64,000 bases of DNA from Polaribacter irgensii 23-P (GTDB taxonomy: Bacteria; Bacteroidota; Bacteroidia; Flavobacteriales; Flavobacteriaceae): positions 202,849 to 266,848 of the forward strand of contig NZ_CH724148.1 of assembly GCF_000153225.1 (NCBI RefSeq), given 5' to 3'. Below the pieces are notes generated by a model. The model was not told the origin of the DNA. It searched no databases and was given only the letters and a program-made list of their open reading frames with translations. Within the stretch, counting starts at the first letter, position 1. Every line of letters begins with the position of its first letter. Below, piece by piece: positions 3,936 through 10,286 of the stretch. Both the position numbers and the translations under genes were made by a program.

Positions 3936-3966
3936 CAAAAGTAGGGTAGATTTTTAAATTAAACAA
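3936..3966 (-). promoter_or_regulatory. trp operon promoter
   Basis: On the minus strand, TTG (3966-3964), 20 bases, then TACTTTTG (3943-3936) match the Bacteroidota -33/-7 consensus. Transcription would begin near 3930, a few bases before the leader ATG. Confidence 0.75.
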
Positions 3967-4135: not shown

Positions 4136-7100
4136 TTATTTTCTTATAATTCTAACATTCATTTCTTCTACCTTTTTATCAGATAAAGGAGAAGGTGCAT
4201 TGAACAGCAAATCTTCTGACGCACCTGTTTTAGGAAAGGCCATTACCTCTCTTATTGAGGCTTTCTTCTCTAAAATCATCATTAAACGATCAATACCCCA
4301 AGCGATGCCCCCATGCGGCGGCGCACCATATTGAAATGCTTTGTGCATGGTTCCCACACTTTTCATCATTTCTTCATGGGTATATCCCATATTTCTATAG
4401 GTAGCTTCTAAAATTTCTGATTTGTGCGCACGCACAGAACCTCCACCAATTTCATATCCATTTAAAATTAAATCGTACTGCTGCGCAATAATGGTTCCTA
4501 TTTCATCCCCTTTGACATTCATGTGCTTCTCTAAATCATAAATAGCTGGCATCGAAAAAGGATTGTGTGTGAACGTCCATCTTCCTTCGTCTGTCTTTTC
4601 AAACATTGGAAAGTCGATCACCCAAGCAGGTCTTAACTCTTTTGGGTTTACAAGGTTCAACACACGTCCCATCTCTTGACGAACGGCGTCTAGTGCTTTG
4701 TTTGCCGTTGCATAATCCGCCGCAGAGAAAAATACAATATCCCCCACTTTAGCTGCAGTAAATTGTATAATATTTTTAGCGATTTCCTCTCCTAAAAATT
4801 TAATAATAGGCGATTGTAAATCATGCTCATTTACAATAATATAAGCCAGTCCCCCTAAGCCATTTTGTTGCGCAATCGTGGTCAAGCTTTCAATTTGTCC
4901 TTTAGACATTCTTTTACCTCCTTGTTCCTTGGCAGAAACTTTAATACATTTTACAATTCCCCCGTCGGCAATTGGCTTACTAAAAACTTGAAAACTAGTC
5001 TCTTTGACAATCGAAGTAATGTCTTGCATTTGCAAACCATACCGTAAATCGGGTCGGTCACAACCATACTTGTCCATTGCATTTTTATACGTAATGACCT
5101 CAAAAGGATATAAAACCCACTTTTTACCATAAATTTTTCGAACTACTTCATTAAACAACCTTGTGTTTAAATCGATAATCTGTTGCATACTCACAAAAGC
5201 CATCTCTAAATCCAACTGCGTAAATTCTGGCTGTCGATCTCCACGCGAGTCTTCGTCTCTAAAACAACGTGCAATTTGAAAATATTTTTCAAAACCACCT
5301 ACCATGAGCATTTGCTTGAACTGCTGTGGCGCCTGAGGCAGCGTATAAAAAGAACCTACCTGTTTTCTTGTTGGCACAATAAACTCTCTTGCACCCTCAT
5401 CTGTTCCCGCAGTTAAAATAGGCGTTTCTATTTCTAAAAACTCTTCTTCATCTAAAAGATCACGCAGCAACTTAATTACTTTATGTCTGTTTACAATTGC
5501 GCGTCGAACTTCATCATTTCGGTGGTCTAGAAATTTATATTCAAAACGGACTTTCTCATTGCTTTTAAAGGCCCTCTTAATTTCAAAAGGCAAGGTTTTA
5601 GAAAGATTTAAGATTTCTAAATCTGTAGTTTCGAGTTCTAATTTCCCTGTTCTCAAACCTGCATTATAATCATCTTCATTTCGTTGAAGTACAATCCCTG
5701 TGACAGAAATGACGGATTCTGGTTTTAACTTCACCAGCTCGTCTAAATTAGGAAACGTTTCTCGACTTAAGCGAACTTGAAAAATCTGAGTACTCGAATC
5801 TCTTAAATCAATAAATATCAATTCACCGTGATCTCGTACACTGGAAACCCAACCCGAGAGCGTTACCTTTTGATTAATAGAGGCTTCGGAGAGCTGAGAA
5901 ACCGTATGTGTTCTATATTCTTCTTTTATGATAATAGCGGTTCGCGGTTCGCTACTTACAGTTATTTCTTCGCTGTTTGCCAGTGTCTGATCGCCAATCG
6001 CTTTCAACCCTTGGTTTTGTGCGTCTTGGTTCTTGGTGATCCCCTCTTTTCTAGACAATTGCTCCAAAATTCCTGCACGTATTACTTTCCCAGAAGCTCC
6101 CTTGCCAATACTACCAATTACTTTCCCAACTAAAATTCCCGCTTTTCCTTCGTTCCCTGCTTTGATTTCATTTGAAATCTCTTCATTTTCTTGCAGAACT
6201 TGTGCAATTGTTAAGCTAATTTTTTCGTGAGAAATCGTGTTTTCTTCGAAATATTTTTTATAATCGAAGCTATTGTTTTCAACATATGTCGCAATTGCGT
6301 TTTGAGCCAATACAGCTGTTATTTGATCGGCTTTCAGTAATTGAAAAATTTCAAGAAGATGCTCAACATGTCCTATCTTTTTATACGCATCTACCTCCAT
6401 ATTATTTACCAATGTTTTGGCAACAAATGACGGATCTTGAAGCACATTATTCAGCGCCATAAAAGTCTTAGATCGAAGCGCATCCGCCGTAAAGAACTTC
6501 GCATCTTGTGGTAAAACCTTCCCGTTAATAAGAACCGTTTCTACAGCATACGGCAGAGCACTTATATCAATTTTAATTCCTGCAACCACTTCTTTAATGT
6601 TCACAAATGGCAAGTCTGGCTCAGATATAAAACGATAATCCGCCTCAAACTCTTTTGTTCGCATCGTTTTAGTCTGCTTTAAATCTGCATCCCATAAAAC
6701 CGTGGTTTGTTCTGGTCTAAACTCGCTATGGGTTTTAAAATAATTTATTTGCTTTTCGATTTCCTCTTTTAGAGCATCTACCATAAACTTAAAAGAGTTT
6801 AGGTTTTTAATTTCTGTTCTTGGATTTAATCCGGTTTCCCCAATTTTCCTCAGAGAAACAGAAACATCTGATTTGAACTCTCCTTTTTCTAAATTTGCTT
6901 CTGAAATCCCTAGATTCTGAACAATTCTCTGAATGTACTGCGCATACGTTGAAGCGTCTTCAATATTTCGAATACAGGGATCTGTAACAATTTCAATAAG
7001 CGGAACTCCAGCTTTATTAAAATCGACCAAAGAAACTTTTTTCTCGTGCATTAGTTTTGCCGCATCTTCTTCAATGTGGGTTTGCGTTAATGTGACCGTA

Positions 7101-7483
7101 AATTGAGAACCATCATTTCGATAACAAGAAACTTCTCCATCTGGAATTACCGGATTGTGAAATTGTGTGATTTGTATATTTTTAGGATTGTCTGGATACT
7201 CATAATGTTTTCGATCCCACGAGATTACGTCATTTGAAAAGGAGGAGTTTACTGCTTTTCCAAAATAAATAGCTTTAATTATTGCCTCTTTATTGATGGC
7301 TGGTAGTACCCCCATTTGCCCCGTACAAACTGAACAAATATGGTGATTGGGAATAGCTATTTCTTCATTCGGGCAGGAGCAAAATAACTTGCTCTTGGTG
7401 TTTAAACGAACATGTGTCTCTAAACCAATAATCAATTCTAAACCGTGAGCCTTCAAAGCCTCTTGTATTTGCACTTGTTCCAT
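4136..7483 (-). CDS. gatB-aspS: Fused GatB amidotransferase subunit and aspartyl-tRNA synthetase
   Basis: One chain of 1115 aa. Residues 1 to about 485 are GatB, which binds mischarged tRNA: the zinc motif is CSC...CSVC with GQMGVLP, and the C-terminal YqeY-like tail is present. A linker of about 40 residues follows. The rest is a full bacterial-type AspRS: anticodon-binding OB fold (GWVSSVRDHGELIF), class II motif 2 (CFRDEDSRGDRQPEFTQ), a GAD insertion, and motif 3 (GIAWGIDRLMM). The His in RDHG is at the position of E. coli Leu30 and is the residue reported for non-discriminating AspRSs such as that of Pseudomonas aeruginosa, so Asp-tRNA(Asn) formation is likely. The chain would couple charging and amidation. 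It starts at the last base of gatA (7483). Confidence 0.95.
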   Translation of the reverse strand: MEQVQIQEALKAHGLELIIGLETHVRLNTKSKLFCSCPNEEIAIPNHHICSVCTGQMGVLPAINKEAIIKAIYFGKAVNSSFSNDVISWDRKHYEYPDNPKNIQITQFHNPVIPDGEVSCYRNDGSQFTVTLTQTHIEEDAAKLMHEKKVSLVDFNKAGVPLIEIVTDPCIRNIEDASTYAQYIQRIVQNLGISEANLEKGEFKSDVSVSLRKIGETGLNPRTEIKNLNSFKFMVDALKEEIEKQINYFKTHSEFRPEQTTVLWDADLKQTKTMRTKEFEADYRFISEPDLPFVNIKEVVAGIKIDISALPYAVETVLINGKVLPQDAKFFTADALRSKTFMALNNVLQDPSFVAKTLVNNMEVDAYKKIGHVEHLLEIFQLLKADQITAVLAQNAIATYVENNSFDYKKYFEENTISHEKISLTIAQVLQENEEISNEIKAGNEGKAGILVGKVIGSIGKGASGKVIRAGILEQLSRKEGITKNQDAQNQGLKAIGDQTLANSEEITVSSEPRTAIIIKEEYRTHTVSQLSEASINQKVTLSGWVSSVRDHGELIFIDLRDSSTQIFQVRLSRETFPNLDELVKLKPESVISVTGIVLQRNEDDYNAGLRTGKLELETTDLEILNLSKTLPFEIKRAFKSNEKVRFEYKFLDHRNDEVRRAIVNRHKVIKLLRDLLDEEEFLEIETPILTAGTDEGAREFIVPTRKQVGSFYTLPQAPQQFKQMLMVGGFEKYFQIARCFRDEDSRGDRQPEFTQLDLEMAFVSMQQIIDLNTRLFNEVVRKIYGKKWVLYPFEVITYKNAMDKYGCDRPDLRYGLQMQDITSIVKETSFQVFSKPIADGGIVKCIKVSAKEQGGKRMSKGQIESLTTIAQQNGLGGLAYIIVNEHDLQSPIIKFLGEEIAKNIIQFTAAKVGDIVFFSAADYATANKALDAVRQEMGRVLNLVNPKELRPAWVIDFPMFEKTDEGRWTFTHNPFSMPAIYDLEKHMNVKGDEIGTIIAQQYDLILNGYEIGGGSVRAHKSEILEATYRNMGYTHEEMMKSVGTMHKAFQYGAPPHGGIAWGIDRLMMILEKKASIREVMAFPKTGASEDLLFNAPSPLSDKKVEEMNVRIIRK

Positions 7484-8886
7484 TATAAAATATCGTTAAG
7501 GAAATTAGCGAATTGCAAAACTGCTGCATCTTTTTTCTTGTCTGCTGTAATCTGTAAACCTGTAGCTGTTCCTTTCGGAATCGTAAGCGTTGGTAAACCA
7601 CCTAAACTAAAACCAACAGTATAGGCATCTGACAAATACATTGCCAACGGGTTCTTTAGACTCTCGCCAATTTTTGGAGGAGCTCCGGGAGTCACTGGAG
7701 ATAAAATGAGGTCTACTTCTGTAAAATCCTTGCTAAACTGTGCGGATATTTGTCCTCTTATATGTTGTGCTTTTAGATAAATAGCGTCCGAAAAACCTTG
7801 AGACAAAACCTGATTTCCACCTACAATTCTTCTTTTTGTTTCTTCAGAAAATTTTTCTGATCGCGTAATGGAATAAGTGTCTTTTAGATTTTCTCCTTCA
7901 ATTCTTGCACCGTAATTTGTTCCGTCTAGGCGAGAAAGGTTAGACGCAGTTTCTGCCATCGCTAGTGTGTAGTATGTAGAAACTAAAATATCTGCATCAA
8001 AAAAGTCCAATGCTTTTATTGCAATACCGCTCGCTTTTATCTTTTCTAAAGTTGCTAAAAAAGCTTCTTTTATTTCATCTGTAATCGCATCAGCTTCAAT
8101 AAAGTTTTTAAAATAACCCACTGTTTTTACTGAAGAAGTTTTATAGTCGATTGCCTCTTCAGAAATTTCTTCGGAACCATAAGTAGTTTGATCTCTAACA
8201 TCTTTTCCACTCATTATATTGAGAACAATTCGAAGATCTTCAATAGAGTTTGCAATGGGTCCAACACAATCTGTAGAAGATGCATAAGCCATTAATCCGT
8301 AACGAGAAATTTTGCCATATGTTGGCTTGAATCCGAATACCTCATTAAAGCCTGCTGGCTGCCGAATAGAACCTCCGGTATCTCCACCGATAGAGAAAAT
8401 CGTAAACTCTTTTGCTACATTTACCGCAGAGCCCCCACTCGAACCTCCACTCACTAGTTCTGTATTGATTGCATTTTTTACAGCACCAAAAATGGTGTTT
8501 TCAGAAGAGGAGCCATGGCCAAACGAATCACAATTTTCCTTGACTAGCGGAATTGCACCAGCATCTAATAATTTCTGAATTGCCGTTGCCGTGTAAGAGG
8601 ATTTGTAACTCTTTAACAAATCTGAACTTGCCGTTGCCAAAGTACCCTGCAACATAAACACATCTTTAATACCAAAAGGAATCCCTTCTAACAATCCTAT
8701 ATCCTCACCATTTTCAATTTTAATATCTACTTTTGCTGCAAGTCCCAAGGCTGTTTCAATTAGCAATGAATTTACAGTGTTGTGCGTGTTCTCCTGAAGC
8801 AAGTCCAGCTTCCCTTGTACCAAACTAACACACGTAAATTCTTTGGACAGCAATTGTTGGTGTATCCTTTTTATCTTTGATTCCAT
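7483..8886 (-). CDS. gatA: Asp/Glu-tRNA amidotransferase subunit A
   Basis: An amidase-family subunit that releases ammonia from glutamine or asparagine for the GatB kinase/transamidase. The Lys-cisSer-Ser triad is intact: Lys74 in PFGIKDV, Ser149 in GGSSGGSA, and Ser173 in GDTGGSIRQ. The spacings match those of characterised GatA proteins. At 467 aa it is slightly shorter than the usual ~485. Its ATG is one base from the gatC stop, and its stop overlaps the gatB start by one base, so the three genes are translationally coupled. Confidence 0.97.
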   Translation of the reverse strand: MESKIKRIHQQLLSKEFTCVSLVQGKLDLLQENTHNTVNSLLIETALGLAAKVDIKIENGEDIGLLEGIPFGIKDVFMLQGTLATASSDLLKSYKSSYTATAIQKLLDAGAIPLVKENCDSFGHGSSSENTIFGAVKNAINTELVSGGSSGGSAVNVAKEFTIFSIGGDTGGSIRQPAGFNEVFGFKPTYGKISRYGLMAYASSTDCVGPIANSIEDLRIVLNIMSGKDVRDQTTYGSEEISEEAIDYKTSSVKTVGYFKNFIEADAITDEIKEAFLATLEKIKASGIAIKALDFFDADILVSTYYTLAMAETASNLSRLDGTNYGARIEGENLKDTYSITRSEKFSEETKRRIVGGNQVLSQGFSDAIYLKAQHIRGQISAQFSKDFTEVDLILSPVTPGAPPKIGESLKNPLAMYLSDAYTVGFSLGGLPTLTIPKGTATGLQITADKKKDAAVLQFANFLNDIL

Positions 8887-8887
8887 A

Positions 8888-9154
8888 TTAATCTTCTATC
8901 ACTTTAGCAACTACTAAAAACCCGTTTTTTTCTCTTGGAAAATTCGCTCTGATAATTTCTTTCTCTAAAGCCGCACTCTCGAAGACAATATCTGCTCTTA
9001 AATCATCTAAAGACACGCTATTATTATTGACTGCATTCAAGGAATTATTATTCTGATTTGCATTTTTAATTACATCAAACAATGTACTCACTGATTCTGA
9101 TGGACGTGCTCCCTTAATACTAGACAAAACGTCTACAGTCATTATTTTACTCAT
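8888..9154 (-). CDS. gatC: GatC-like subunit with an Asn-rich N-terminal half
   Basis: An 88-aa first gene of the gat operon. The C-terminal half (SLDDLRADI...ALEKEIIRANFP...GFLVVAKVIED) fits the GatC end, which wraps between GatA and GatB. The N-terminal half is unlike ordinary GatC: a 15-residue stretch (about residues 32-46) holds nine Asn residues, nearly all AAT. The identity rests on position in the operon and the C-terminal resemblance. The Asn run may be a linker or may slow translation when Asn-tRNA is scarce (inference). Confidence 0.75.
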   Translation of the reverse strand: MSKIMTVDVLSSIKGARPSESVSTLFDVIKNANQNNNSLNAVNNNSVSLDDLRADIVFESAALEKEIIRANFPREKNGFLVVAKVIED

Positions 9155-9171
9155 GTCTTTTATTTTAAATT

Positions 9172-9202
9172 AAAAAAAAAGCCTTCCGATTTGGAAGGCT
9201 TT
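9172..9202 (-). terminator. gat operon attenuator hairpin
   Basis: On the minus strand AAAGCCTTCC, the loop AAATC and GGAAGGCTTT form a 10-bp stem followed by nine T. It lies between the Asn-rich leader and gatC. GGAGG (9221-9225), just after the leader stop, can pair with CTTCC of the 5' arm as an antiterminator. Confidence 0.88.
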
Positions 9203-9230
9203 ATATATTTCTAAACAATAACCTCCTGTC

Positions 9231-9278
9231 CTATAGCATAGGATTATTGAAATTACGATTGTTGTTATTAATGCTCAT
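9231..9278 (-). CDS. Asn-rich leader peptide (MSINNNNRNFNNPML)
   Basis: A 15-aa frame in which seven codons are Asn (AAT/AAC), directly upstream of a factor-independent terminator and the gatCAB-aspS operon. Its CAATAATCCT pairs with AGGTTATTG downstream (one bulged base). A ribosome stalled on Asn codons would break this pairing and release GGAGG to block the terminator. The arrangement parallels the trp leader 5 kb away. No named gene is known to me for it. Confidence 0.82.
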   Translation of the reverse strand: MSINNNNRNFNNPML

Positions 9279-9294
9279 GAATGCAATTATACAA

Positions 9295-9321
9295 CAAATT
9301 TATGTAGAACAACCCTTACAA
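9295..9321 (-). promoter_or_regulatory. Probable gat operon promoter
   Basis: On the minus strand TAAATTTG (9302-9295) matches TAnnTTTG exactly. A TTG lies at 9321-9319 with a short spacing of 16. Transcription would start about 10 bases before the Asn leader. A second weaker box, TATAATTG, lies closer to the ATG. Confidence 0.5.
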
Positions 9322-9845
9322 ATACTTCTTTTCCATGATTTTAAACGGTCTTTACAGTATTGACAAAATATGGATACTTAATTACAGATATAATAAAATC
9401 GAGATTAAAAGTAGATCCCTTTTTAGAAGGTTTCAGAAACTTCTATTTAAAAATGGTTACCTGTATTCTTTCATTCTATGCAGAAACAAGTGAAACCGAC
9501 CTTGTTTTGAAGCGATATCTGACAAGGAACCTCTAAAAATTACGACTCTTTCAAAAAAAATATTCTTTGAGTAGTGATTATAGTCTGTCCTATAATTTGT
9601 AAGTTAAAATAGATGTAAAATTATTTTTTTACACTGGGTATTTCTGAAAATAAAAAAATACGCAATGCTAGTTCTCATGACGTCTGACACTTCGCTAGCT
9701 AAAAAAGTTTTAATACATTATAGGGACTCTTAATCATTTTATTACCCGGTTGTAATTGTAATAACATGATAATTAAAAATAATATGATTCTTACAAAAGT
9801 GCAAAGACTGGCAAATTAGCCTGTTGTAAAATCACTAACCTTTGA
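9303..9845. other. Intergenic stretch without a recognisable gene
   Basis: About 540 AT-rich bases between the gat promoter and a doubtful frame ahead of gyrB. Both strands are full of stops. No RNA gene, repeat or mobile element was recognised. Confidence 0.5.
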
Positions 9846-10286
9846 GTGTTCAGCAAAGACAGTATACTCGTAAGTCATTCAATACTAGAAACCGAGTCAG
9901 AAGGAATTTTTAAGATTACATCAATACTCAACGGTGAAAGTATCTTCAAAGAAAAAGGAGTTGTCTTAAGTTCTGACAAATATAGCATAGAAACTGAAAC
10001 CTCGAATAAAGATTTTAAAGTAAACGATGACATGATTTTTAAAATCCAAATTAACAATCGCTTAAGCGTAATTAAACCACTATTTAAGGCAAATGCATTA
10101 TTGAAGTTATGTGCAATTTGTTCTCAAAATATAGTTAGAAACAAGTTTGTATTCTTCATTTTAAAGCAAGCGTTGATCCTGAAGATCTTCCTTCGCATAC
10201 TTTTATATTTTGGAACTCTTAACTCCTTTTTCGTAAACTTGACTAATCGTTTAAACTTGCATATTTTCTCGCTACAAACCAACTAA
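9846..10286 (+). CDS. Doubtful hypothetical protein or gene remnant (146 aa)
   Basis: Opens with GTG. The first ~77 residues look protein-like, with alternating hydrophilic and hydrophobic strands (such as FKVNDDMIFKIQINN). The later half is rich in hydrophobic and Cys residues and looks like read-through of non-coding DNA. There is no signal peptide and no recognised domain. A terminator-like hairpin follows at 10326. It may be the 3' end of a decayed gene. Low confidence. Confidence 0.25.
   Translation: MFSKDSILVSHSILETESEGIFKITSILNGESIFKEKGVVLSSDKYSIETETSNKDFKVNDDMIFKIQINNRLSVIKPLFKANALLKLCAICSQNIVRNKFVFFILKQALILKIFLRILLYFGTLNSFFVNLTNRLNLHIFSLQTN

Follow-up and report, generated by a model that had tools for sequence, protein, structure and literature searches.

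The window, by which we mean the whole 64,000-nucleotide stretch of the Polaribacter irgensii 23-P genome that was analysed, carries on its minus strand a promoter box (TAAATTTG), a short leader frame, a GGAGG stretch, a hairpin with a T run, and the genes gatC, gatA and gatB-aspS, in that order. The first gene, putative gatC (8888–9154, minus strand), encodes an 88 aa product that has no match to Pfam or NCBIfam models and is identified mainly by its position; it is kept in 59 of 397 genomes of the family. A profile search finds a weak match (E 0.65) between the C-terminal part of this protein and a solved GatC chain, ranked behind two repeat proteins for which there is no convincing single stretch, and the name GatC, taken from position and this weak likeness, is thus a putative one. 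The protein is short with an Asn-rich middle part, and is like GatC in its C-terminal part alone. The second gene, gatA (7483–8886, minus strand), codes for the amidase subunit and matches PF01425 as well as TIGR00132, the latter at 425 bits and so below the cut-off of 481. An earlier reading of this DNA from its letters alone (the sequence-only reading) had described a gatCAB-aspS operon; the operon stands, except that gatB and aspS are not separate genes but one fused frame of 1115 aa (4136–7483, minus strand), matched by GatB models at residues 15–477 and by AspRS models at 522–1114, with the domains GatB_N, GatB_Yqey, tRNA-synt_2 and GAD.

The AspRS part of the fusion is of the bacterial type according to profile scans, and its choice of tRNA can be considered from a short motif. 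Of 14 genomes surveyed for a second AspRS, the 11 with GatC all have both a stand-alone and a fused enzyme (the GatB-AspRS fusion being about 1120 aa; loci L193–L203), and the three without GatC have the stand-alone form only. All 11 fused enzymes read RDHG, and all 14 stand-alone enzymes have Lys at the His position. Among solved chains, 4wj3_M, which is named an Asp/Asn ligase, also reads RDHG, and 6hhv, 1efw and 1eqr read RDLG; 4o2d_A, named a plain aspartate ligase, likewise reads RDHG, so the name of a chain is not a clean guide. In work on the Pseudomonas aeruginosa AspRS the His of RDHG reportedly goes with relaxed tRNA choice, and the fused AspRS is probably non-discriminating.

A promoter ahead of the leader had been predicted, and it is better read as TAAATTTG at 9302–9295 (minus strand). 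This box is of the TAnnTTTG type, the flavobacterial promoter type of Bacteroidota, and precedes the leader in all 81 aligned relatives, its first base lying 18–69 nt ahead of the first position of the covariance model described below (21–28 nt in 71 of the 81). By eye, there is an inverted repeat about 10–30 nt upstream of the box in several genera (AATAG-N8-CTATT), and another (GGTT-N5-AACC) before the box at several Polaribacter-like loci; such repeats are possibly a protein site or an upstream promoter element. The leader frame (9278–9231, minus strand) encodes MSINNNNRNFNNPML followed by a stop, through the codons ATG AGC ATT AAT AAC AAC AAT CGT AAT TTC AAT AAT CCT ATG CTA TAG, such that seven of its 15 amino acid codons specify Asn.

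Four segments with overlapping pairing potential follow one another from within this frame to the T run. Segment 1 (CAATAATCCTA, 9249–9239, minus strand) lies within the leader frame and has an inner helix, in which CCTA pairs with TAGG at 9233–9230, and an outer one, in which CAATAA can pair with TTATTG at 9221–9216. Segment 2 (AGGAGGTTATTG, 9227–9216, minus strand) contains GGAGG, begins 3 nt past the leader stop codon, and has letters complementary to those of segment 1 as well as to the terminator's 5′ arm. Segments 3 and 4 constitute an intrinsic terminator with its T run (9202–9172, minus strand), found by a terminator scan and by pairing across leaders; in a simple scan the stem spans 9202–9178 with 10 pairs, and the T run extends to 9172. 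A terminator is thus present between the leader and the first gene, as expected of an attenuator. It is unlikely that transcription in the window starts downstream of the leader, since the ATG of gatC at 9154 comes just 17 nt after the T run. The predicted pairing of GGAGG with the terminator also holds, with the qualification that its partner here is CCTTC (five pairs, one of them G-U); in most relatives the antiterminator is formed by GGAAGG with CCTTCC.

The leader frame and the hairpins are both unusual for this DNA. When the 546 nt upstream of gatC were shuffled with dinucleotides preserved, none of 5000 shuffles contained an ATG frame of 8–25 codons with at least seven Asn codons, and of 729 such 8–25 codon ATG frames in the whole window only one has seven Asn codons; the 15 aa frame with seven Asn codons between a promoter and a terminator is as it was first described. 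The folding z-score of 9165–9290 is −3.45, with none of 200 shuffles as stable.

Comparison with relatives, which had been put forward as the way to check the proposal, shows the same arrangement at most gatC loci. When 59 genomes, comprising this one and relatives, were searched for GatC, 14 loci were found, each of them in the genus of the window, and at 12 of these there is a 15 aa frame with 6–10 Asn codons in the same place, together with the hairpins. A covariance model, R1, was built from eight of these 12 leaders, that of the window included. Strong R1 matches (at least 88 bits) are present in 37 of 397 genomes of the family, belonging to 27 genera and including this genome, and the next best match scores 48 bits; all 37 are located directly upstream of gatC-gatA. 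At E 0.01 R1 matches 79 of the 397 genomes in all, 42 of them with weak matches only (48 bits or less), and of eight weak matches inspected none is beside gatC or gatA. In an order-wide sample of 246 genomes, with an uncounted share from outside the family, R1 matches at E ≤1e-4 in this genome only, a result that does not establish absence elsewhere.

A GatC profile finds 59 of the 397 family genomes, and these comprise the 37 with the leader and 22 that are leaderless. The sequence-only reading had taken relatives with the same operon and no Asn-rich frame or hairpin as evidence against itself, and this describes the subset of 22, all with a different promoter-like box; the other 37 of 59 have the leader. 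None of the 22 leaderless loci has a frame of 8–39 codons with at least four Asn codons in the 300 nt before gatC, and each of the 22 has the promoter-like box CTTTYGTAATTT 35–51 nt before the gatC start. The operon evidently works without the leader, given that 22 of the 59 gatC loci do not have one. (The leaderless gatC loci are L011, L013 and 22 of the family sample, within L062–L098.) Among named genomes the leader is found at E ≤1e-5 in 47 of the best 80 of 228 GatC loci, including those of Polaribacter, Algibacter, Tamlana, Seonamhaeicola, Flaviramulus, Flavivirga, Aestuariivivens and Hyunsoonleella, and is absent from nine Flavobacterium and five Lutibacter loci among the same best 80 of 228. 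When GatA from 70 loci was placed on a tree (two more, of 72 in all, were too short and were dropped), the leader and leaderless forms came out interspersed, with 14 changes between them against a shuffled mean of 20; the tree is weakly supported, and its starred branches force only one change. This interspersion and the box before leaderless gatC genes suggest that the control region has been repeatedly lost or exchanged. No Asn-rich short frame is found before asnS in six genomes or before the stand-alone aspS in this genome.

These comparisons bear on another reading of the region, in which the hairpin serves as an ordinary terminator for a transcript coming from upstream, with the Asn frame an accident of AT-rich DNA. 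The region is indeed AT-rich, and the frame is missing at the 22 leaderless loci. However, all 81 aligned leaders have both the promoter box and a frame of 14–17 aa with 6–10 Asn codons, the pairing is compensatory (see below), and the nearest listed upstream frame of at least 60 aa on the minus strand ends at 9875, more than 500 nt away. A chance Asn frame is contradicted by the 37 strong matches before gatC-gatA together with the shuffles, and we regard this explanation as extremely improbable.

The alignment shows which parts of the leader are conserved as codons and which as RNA. It contains 81 leaders, 48 from sampled genomes and 33 of the 47 from named genomes, repeats being avoided, and 80 are distinct; the frame starts with ATG in 80 of the 81 and with GTG in one. 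Counting codons back from the stop (two rows with a stop two codons later count as out of frame), Asn is present at positions −12, −11, −10 and −9 in 72, 75, 77 and 78 of 80 leaders. The synonymous codons are exchanged at the first three of these positions, where the ratios of AAT to AAC are 62:10, 45:30 and 8:69; at −9 the ratio is 78:0, and AAT is likewise the sole codon at −7 and −4 and almost the sole one at −5. At −8 the residue can be Asn, Arg, Leu or Thr; from −7 to −3 the leaders encode Asn Phe Asn Asn Pro, and third-base changes are few there. The retention of Asn early in the frame despite exchange of AAT and AAC, and the paucity of third-base changes late in it, indicate that Asn itself is kept at the beginning and the RNA letters at the end, where pairing occurs. 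The frame thus has the run of codons for one amino acid under selection that is typical of an attenuator, as judged from aligned sequences.

The pairing is similarly well conserved, though with differences among the helices. In the stored structure of the model 99.0% of cells are paired, and there are four pairs changed on both sides (shuffled mean 1.9, with nine of 500 shuffles having as many) and 15 such cells (none of 500 shuffles having as many); these figures come from an alignment that was fitted to the model and leans to its structure, and from leaders that are related, so that the shuffles overstate. Compensatory pairing is seen in two of the three helices. The clearest covariation is a change of leader CCT to TCT that is accompanied, past the stop codon, by one of G to A (C-G to U-A) in four of 80 leaders, and in the terminator, where 99.8% of cells are paired, three pairs are changed on both sides. 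The antiterminator formed by segment 2 and the 5′ arm of the terminator is paired in 97.5% of cells in the 80 distinct leaders, in which it has no covariation beyond that of shuffles. Of the leader pairing as first proposed, the inner helix (CCTA with TAGG) is solid, and folding does not favour the outer helix (CAATAA with TTATTG), even though 97.3% of its cells are paired among relatives; in this genome folding prefers an alternative in which GTAATTTC pairs with the GGAGGTTAT stretch, and this is paired in 86.9% of cells.

The conservation of the end of the frame raises the question of whether the peptide acts as such, an N-N-F-N-N-P-N peptide stalling its ribosome in response to a signal other than Asn-tRNA and the hairpins reading the stall. 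Phe at −6 in 77 of 80 leaders and Pro at −3 in 73 of 80 would accord with this, although the conserved stretch coincides with the pairing segment. Moreover, where CCT is replaced by TCT (five of 80 leaders), which changes Pro to Ser, the pairing G is replaced by A in four, and a change of residue matched across the helix shows that the RNA and not the residue is kept; and codon −8 tolerates Asn, Arg, Leu or Thr. Arrest by the nascent peptide is for these reasons very improbable.

Folding predictions show how the segments could constitute a switch. Complementarity for the 1:2, 2:3 and 3:4 pairings is kept in 97–100% of cells, and a switch emerges only if folding is carried out in steps. In 72 of the 81 leaders (the other nine, which have gaps within the first 30 columns, were excluded) the leader was masked to imitate a ribosome. 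Before segment 4 is made, masking to nt 39, which stands for a ribosome stalled at the Asn codons, gives a mean probability of 0.94 for 2:3 pairing, which exceeds 0.5 in 70 of the 72; masking to nt 60, approximately a ribosome on the stop codon, gives 0.00, exceeding 0.5 in none of the 72. Earlier still, before segment 3 is made, upstream letters hold segment 2 with a probability of 0.78 if the leader is free and of 0.12 if masking extends to nt 39. The full-length equilibrium fold contains the terminator in every masked state (0.88–1.00), and the predicted switch therefore depends on the order of synthesis during transcription, a dependence that is usual for attenuators.

One feature of these predictions needs particular consideration. 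On an untranslated leader, before segment 4 is made, 2:3 pairing is still predicted at 0.89, which means that the pairing in the leader has to form first in order to act, and in such folding models the state of the operon without leader translation is uncertain. The same prediction would fit a general sensor of translation, in which the operon is opened whenever translation slows in any way or the leader goes untranslated, and the Asn codons are merely A-rich and loosely folded. Against this, Lys (AAA) never replaces Asn at −12 to −9 (none of 80 leaders), where Asn is kept in 72–78; furthermore, the element is tied to asparagine synthesis genes in all 37 of the strong matches. We therefore regard a general sensor as very improbable.

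The gene content of these genomes suggests what the operon is for. Pathway genes were searched in 80 genomes, of which 61 have GatC (G006, G016 and all 59 GatC genomes of the family sample) and 19, taken from the heads of earlier lists, do not. The genome of the window has AsnRS, GlnRS, a stand-alone AspRS and the fused AspRS, and has no match to AsnA or to the AsnB family. An AsnB type with a split match pattern (a type label of this analysis: profile positions 1 or 16 to about 385, in a frame of 528–574 aa) is present in 18 of the 19 GatC-negative genomes and in none of the 61 with GatC; the nineteenth has AsnA, which is found in none of the 61. As no genome with GatC has this AsnB type, the operon is probably a tRNA-dependent asparagine pathway. 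Other AsnB-family members occur in 22 of the 61 GatC genomes, in which asparagine may consequently have a second source, and none occurs in the other 39. In these 80 genomes the GatC operon and one AsnB type are mutually exclusive, which amounts to a patchy exchange of asparagine pathways across a single family.

Two other purposes for the operon were considered and rejected. A need for GatCAB in glutamine supply does not agree with GlnRS being present in 60 of the 61 GatC genomes (the exception, G328, is 76% complete), and a need arising from want of AsnRS does not agree with AsnRS being above the cut-off in 75 of the 80, this one included. The five genomes with no AsnRS match are G328 and four leaderless GatC genomes. 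These four are near-complete (L094–L097; G294, G285, G440 and G237), and among leader genomes an AsnRS match is missing only in G328. With G328 left out, AsnRS is absent from four of 22 leaderless versus none of 36 leader genomes (Fisher 0.017), a figure that rests on few independent lineages, given that three of the four form one clade, and that is given no weight here. Of the 35 tRNA loci 30 were scanned; these include one tRNA-Asn gene, and it has U1-A72, the pair needed for GatCAB (PMC4206432, available part). The genome thus contains the set of genes that goes with tRNA-dependent asparagine synthesis, with the identity of GatC being weak. On all of this evidence the operon is very probably the tRNA-dependent asparagine pathway known from Bdellovibrio and others.

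Taken together, the sequence comparisons and folding models make it highly probable that the element is a ribosome-mediated leader-peptide transcription attenuator that senses Asn-tRNA and controls the operon for tRNA-dependent asparagine synthesis. The sequence-only reading had arrived at attenuation by Asn-tRNA, and is borne out by the Asn frame and hairpins in relatives and by the retention of Asn through synonymous changes. We infer stalling, readthrough, enzyme activity and induction by shortage of asparagine, in the following scheme. Transcription would begin just downstream of TAAATTTG, and the 15-codon leader would be translated. When Asn-tRNA(Asn) is plentiful, the ribosome would reach the stop codon and cover segment 2, or upstream letters would hold this segment after the ribosome is released; with segment 2 unavailable, segment 3 would pair with segment 4 and transcription would end before gatC. 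When Asn-tRNA(Asn) is scarce, the ribosome would stall in the Asn codons and mask segment 1, and 2:3 pairing would form before segment 4 is made, such that no terminator arises and gatCA and gatB-aspS are transcribed. The fused AspRS would then load Asp onto tRNA-Asn, and amidation by GatCAB would restore Asn-tRNA(Asn) and, by turnover, asparagine.

A further version is that the leader senses amidation rather than charging. The Asn codons could stall ribosomes when amidation lags behind aspartylation, with Asp-tRNA(Asn), the operon's own intermediate, kept off the ribosome and the lag set by the supply of Gln or of GatCAB; the control would then be the ratio of product to misacylated intermediate. 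This version seems possible but rather unlikely. If true, it would be the first attenuation to read tRNA-dependent amino-acid synthesis, and would do so in cells that also charge Asn by means of AsnRS.

Ribosome-mediated leader-peptide attenuators are known for the amino-acid operons trp, his, phe, thr, ilv and leu. The leader of the window shares with them a short codon-rich frame, overlapping pairings, a terminator with a U run, and a cognate operon, but differs in having Asn codons and in its target, tRNA-dependent synthesis by gatCAB, in which GatB is fused to AspRS. No Rfam family covers this element, and none reaches its threshold in 9100–9400; the best scores there are 37.2 of 55 bits for Phe_leader (RF01859), which also scores 33.2 on the wrong strand, and, within the leader families, 18.9 of 55 bits for Thr_leader.

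The earlier suggestion that control of an amidotransferase operon through its own product had not been described goes too far. In Clostridium acetobutylicum the transamidation operon is under the control of a T-box riboswitch to which tRNA-Asn and tRNA-Glu bind (Saad et al. 2012, 2013, as described in PMC4052509, available part, and referenced in PMC4206432). The two systems have in common the tRNA-Asn input and a transamidation operon; in C. acetobutylicum, as the available part of that work describes it, the RNA binds tRNA directly, and tRNA-Glu also, whereas in the window the translating ribosome would be the sensor. A T-box as the explanation of the present element was rejected: there is no T-box match at E ≤1 in 9100–9400 and none at the gathering threshold in the window. 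In the set of PMC2494555, in its available part, no T-boxes were found before amidotransferase genes.

The pathway itself has parallels. Bdellovibrio, Deinococcus and Thermus have tRNA-dependent asparagine synthesis beside AsnRS and GlnRS (PMC4206432, available part), and the likeness extends to the combination of AsnRS, GlnRS and GatCAB, no AsnA, and a tRNA-Asn with U1-A72. Within the same available part, only Deinococcus-Thermus among 18 surveyed genera with such synthesis have a second AspRS. A second AspRS is present here as well, but it is of bacterial type and fused to GatB, and the available part of the survey mentions neither a bacterial-type second AspRS fused to the amidotransferase nor attenuation of tRNA-dependent asparagine synthesis. 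By word search of their available parts, asparagine, gatC and aspS are unmentioned in PMC2965389, and asparagine and gatC in PMC1262725; in the open-licence literature, as far as it was searched, no asparagine leader peptide was found. The kind of mechanism is old; the amino acid and the operon appear to be new, and the element is widespread in one family.

Several consequences would follow from this attenuator. Asparagine would join the amino acids that are read by leader-peptide attenuators, and since the operon in question forms it on the tRNA, the molecule sensed and the product would be one and the same. The attenuator hints at the way in which flavobacteria that lack the common AsnB type may run a second route to Asn-tRNA beside AsnRS. 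A regulatory task that a riboswitch performs in a clostridium would here very probably fall to a translating ribosome. The leader could be used directly to report on asparagine or on the state of amidation, and the 37 operons with a leader and 22 without provide a natural comparison. The window also contains a known attenuator of similar build about 5 kb downstream: a Bacteroid-trp leader (RF01692) at 3950–3830 on the minus strand, with the frame MKNNTNKTWWWNSLNS, located before trpE, and this is the only place in the window, distinct from the Asn leader, that the Bacteroid-trp model matches.
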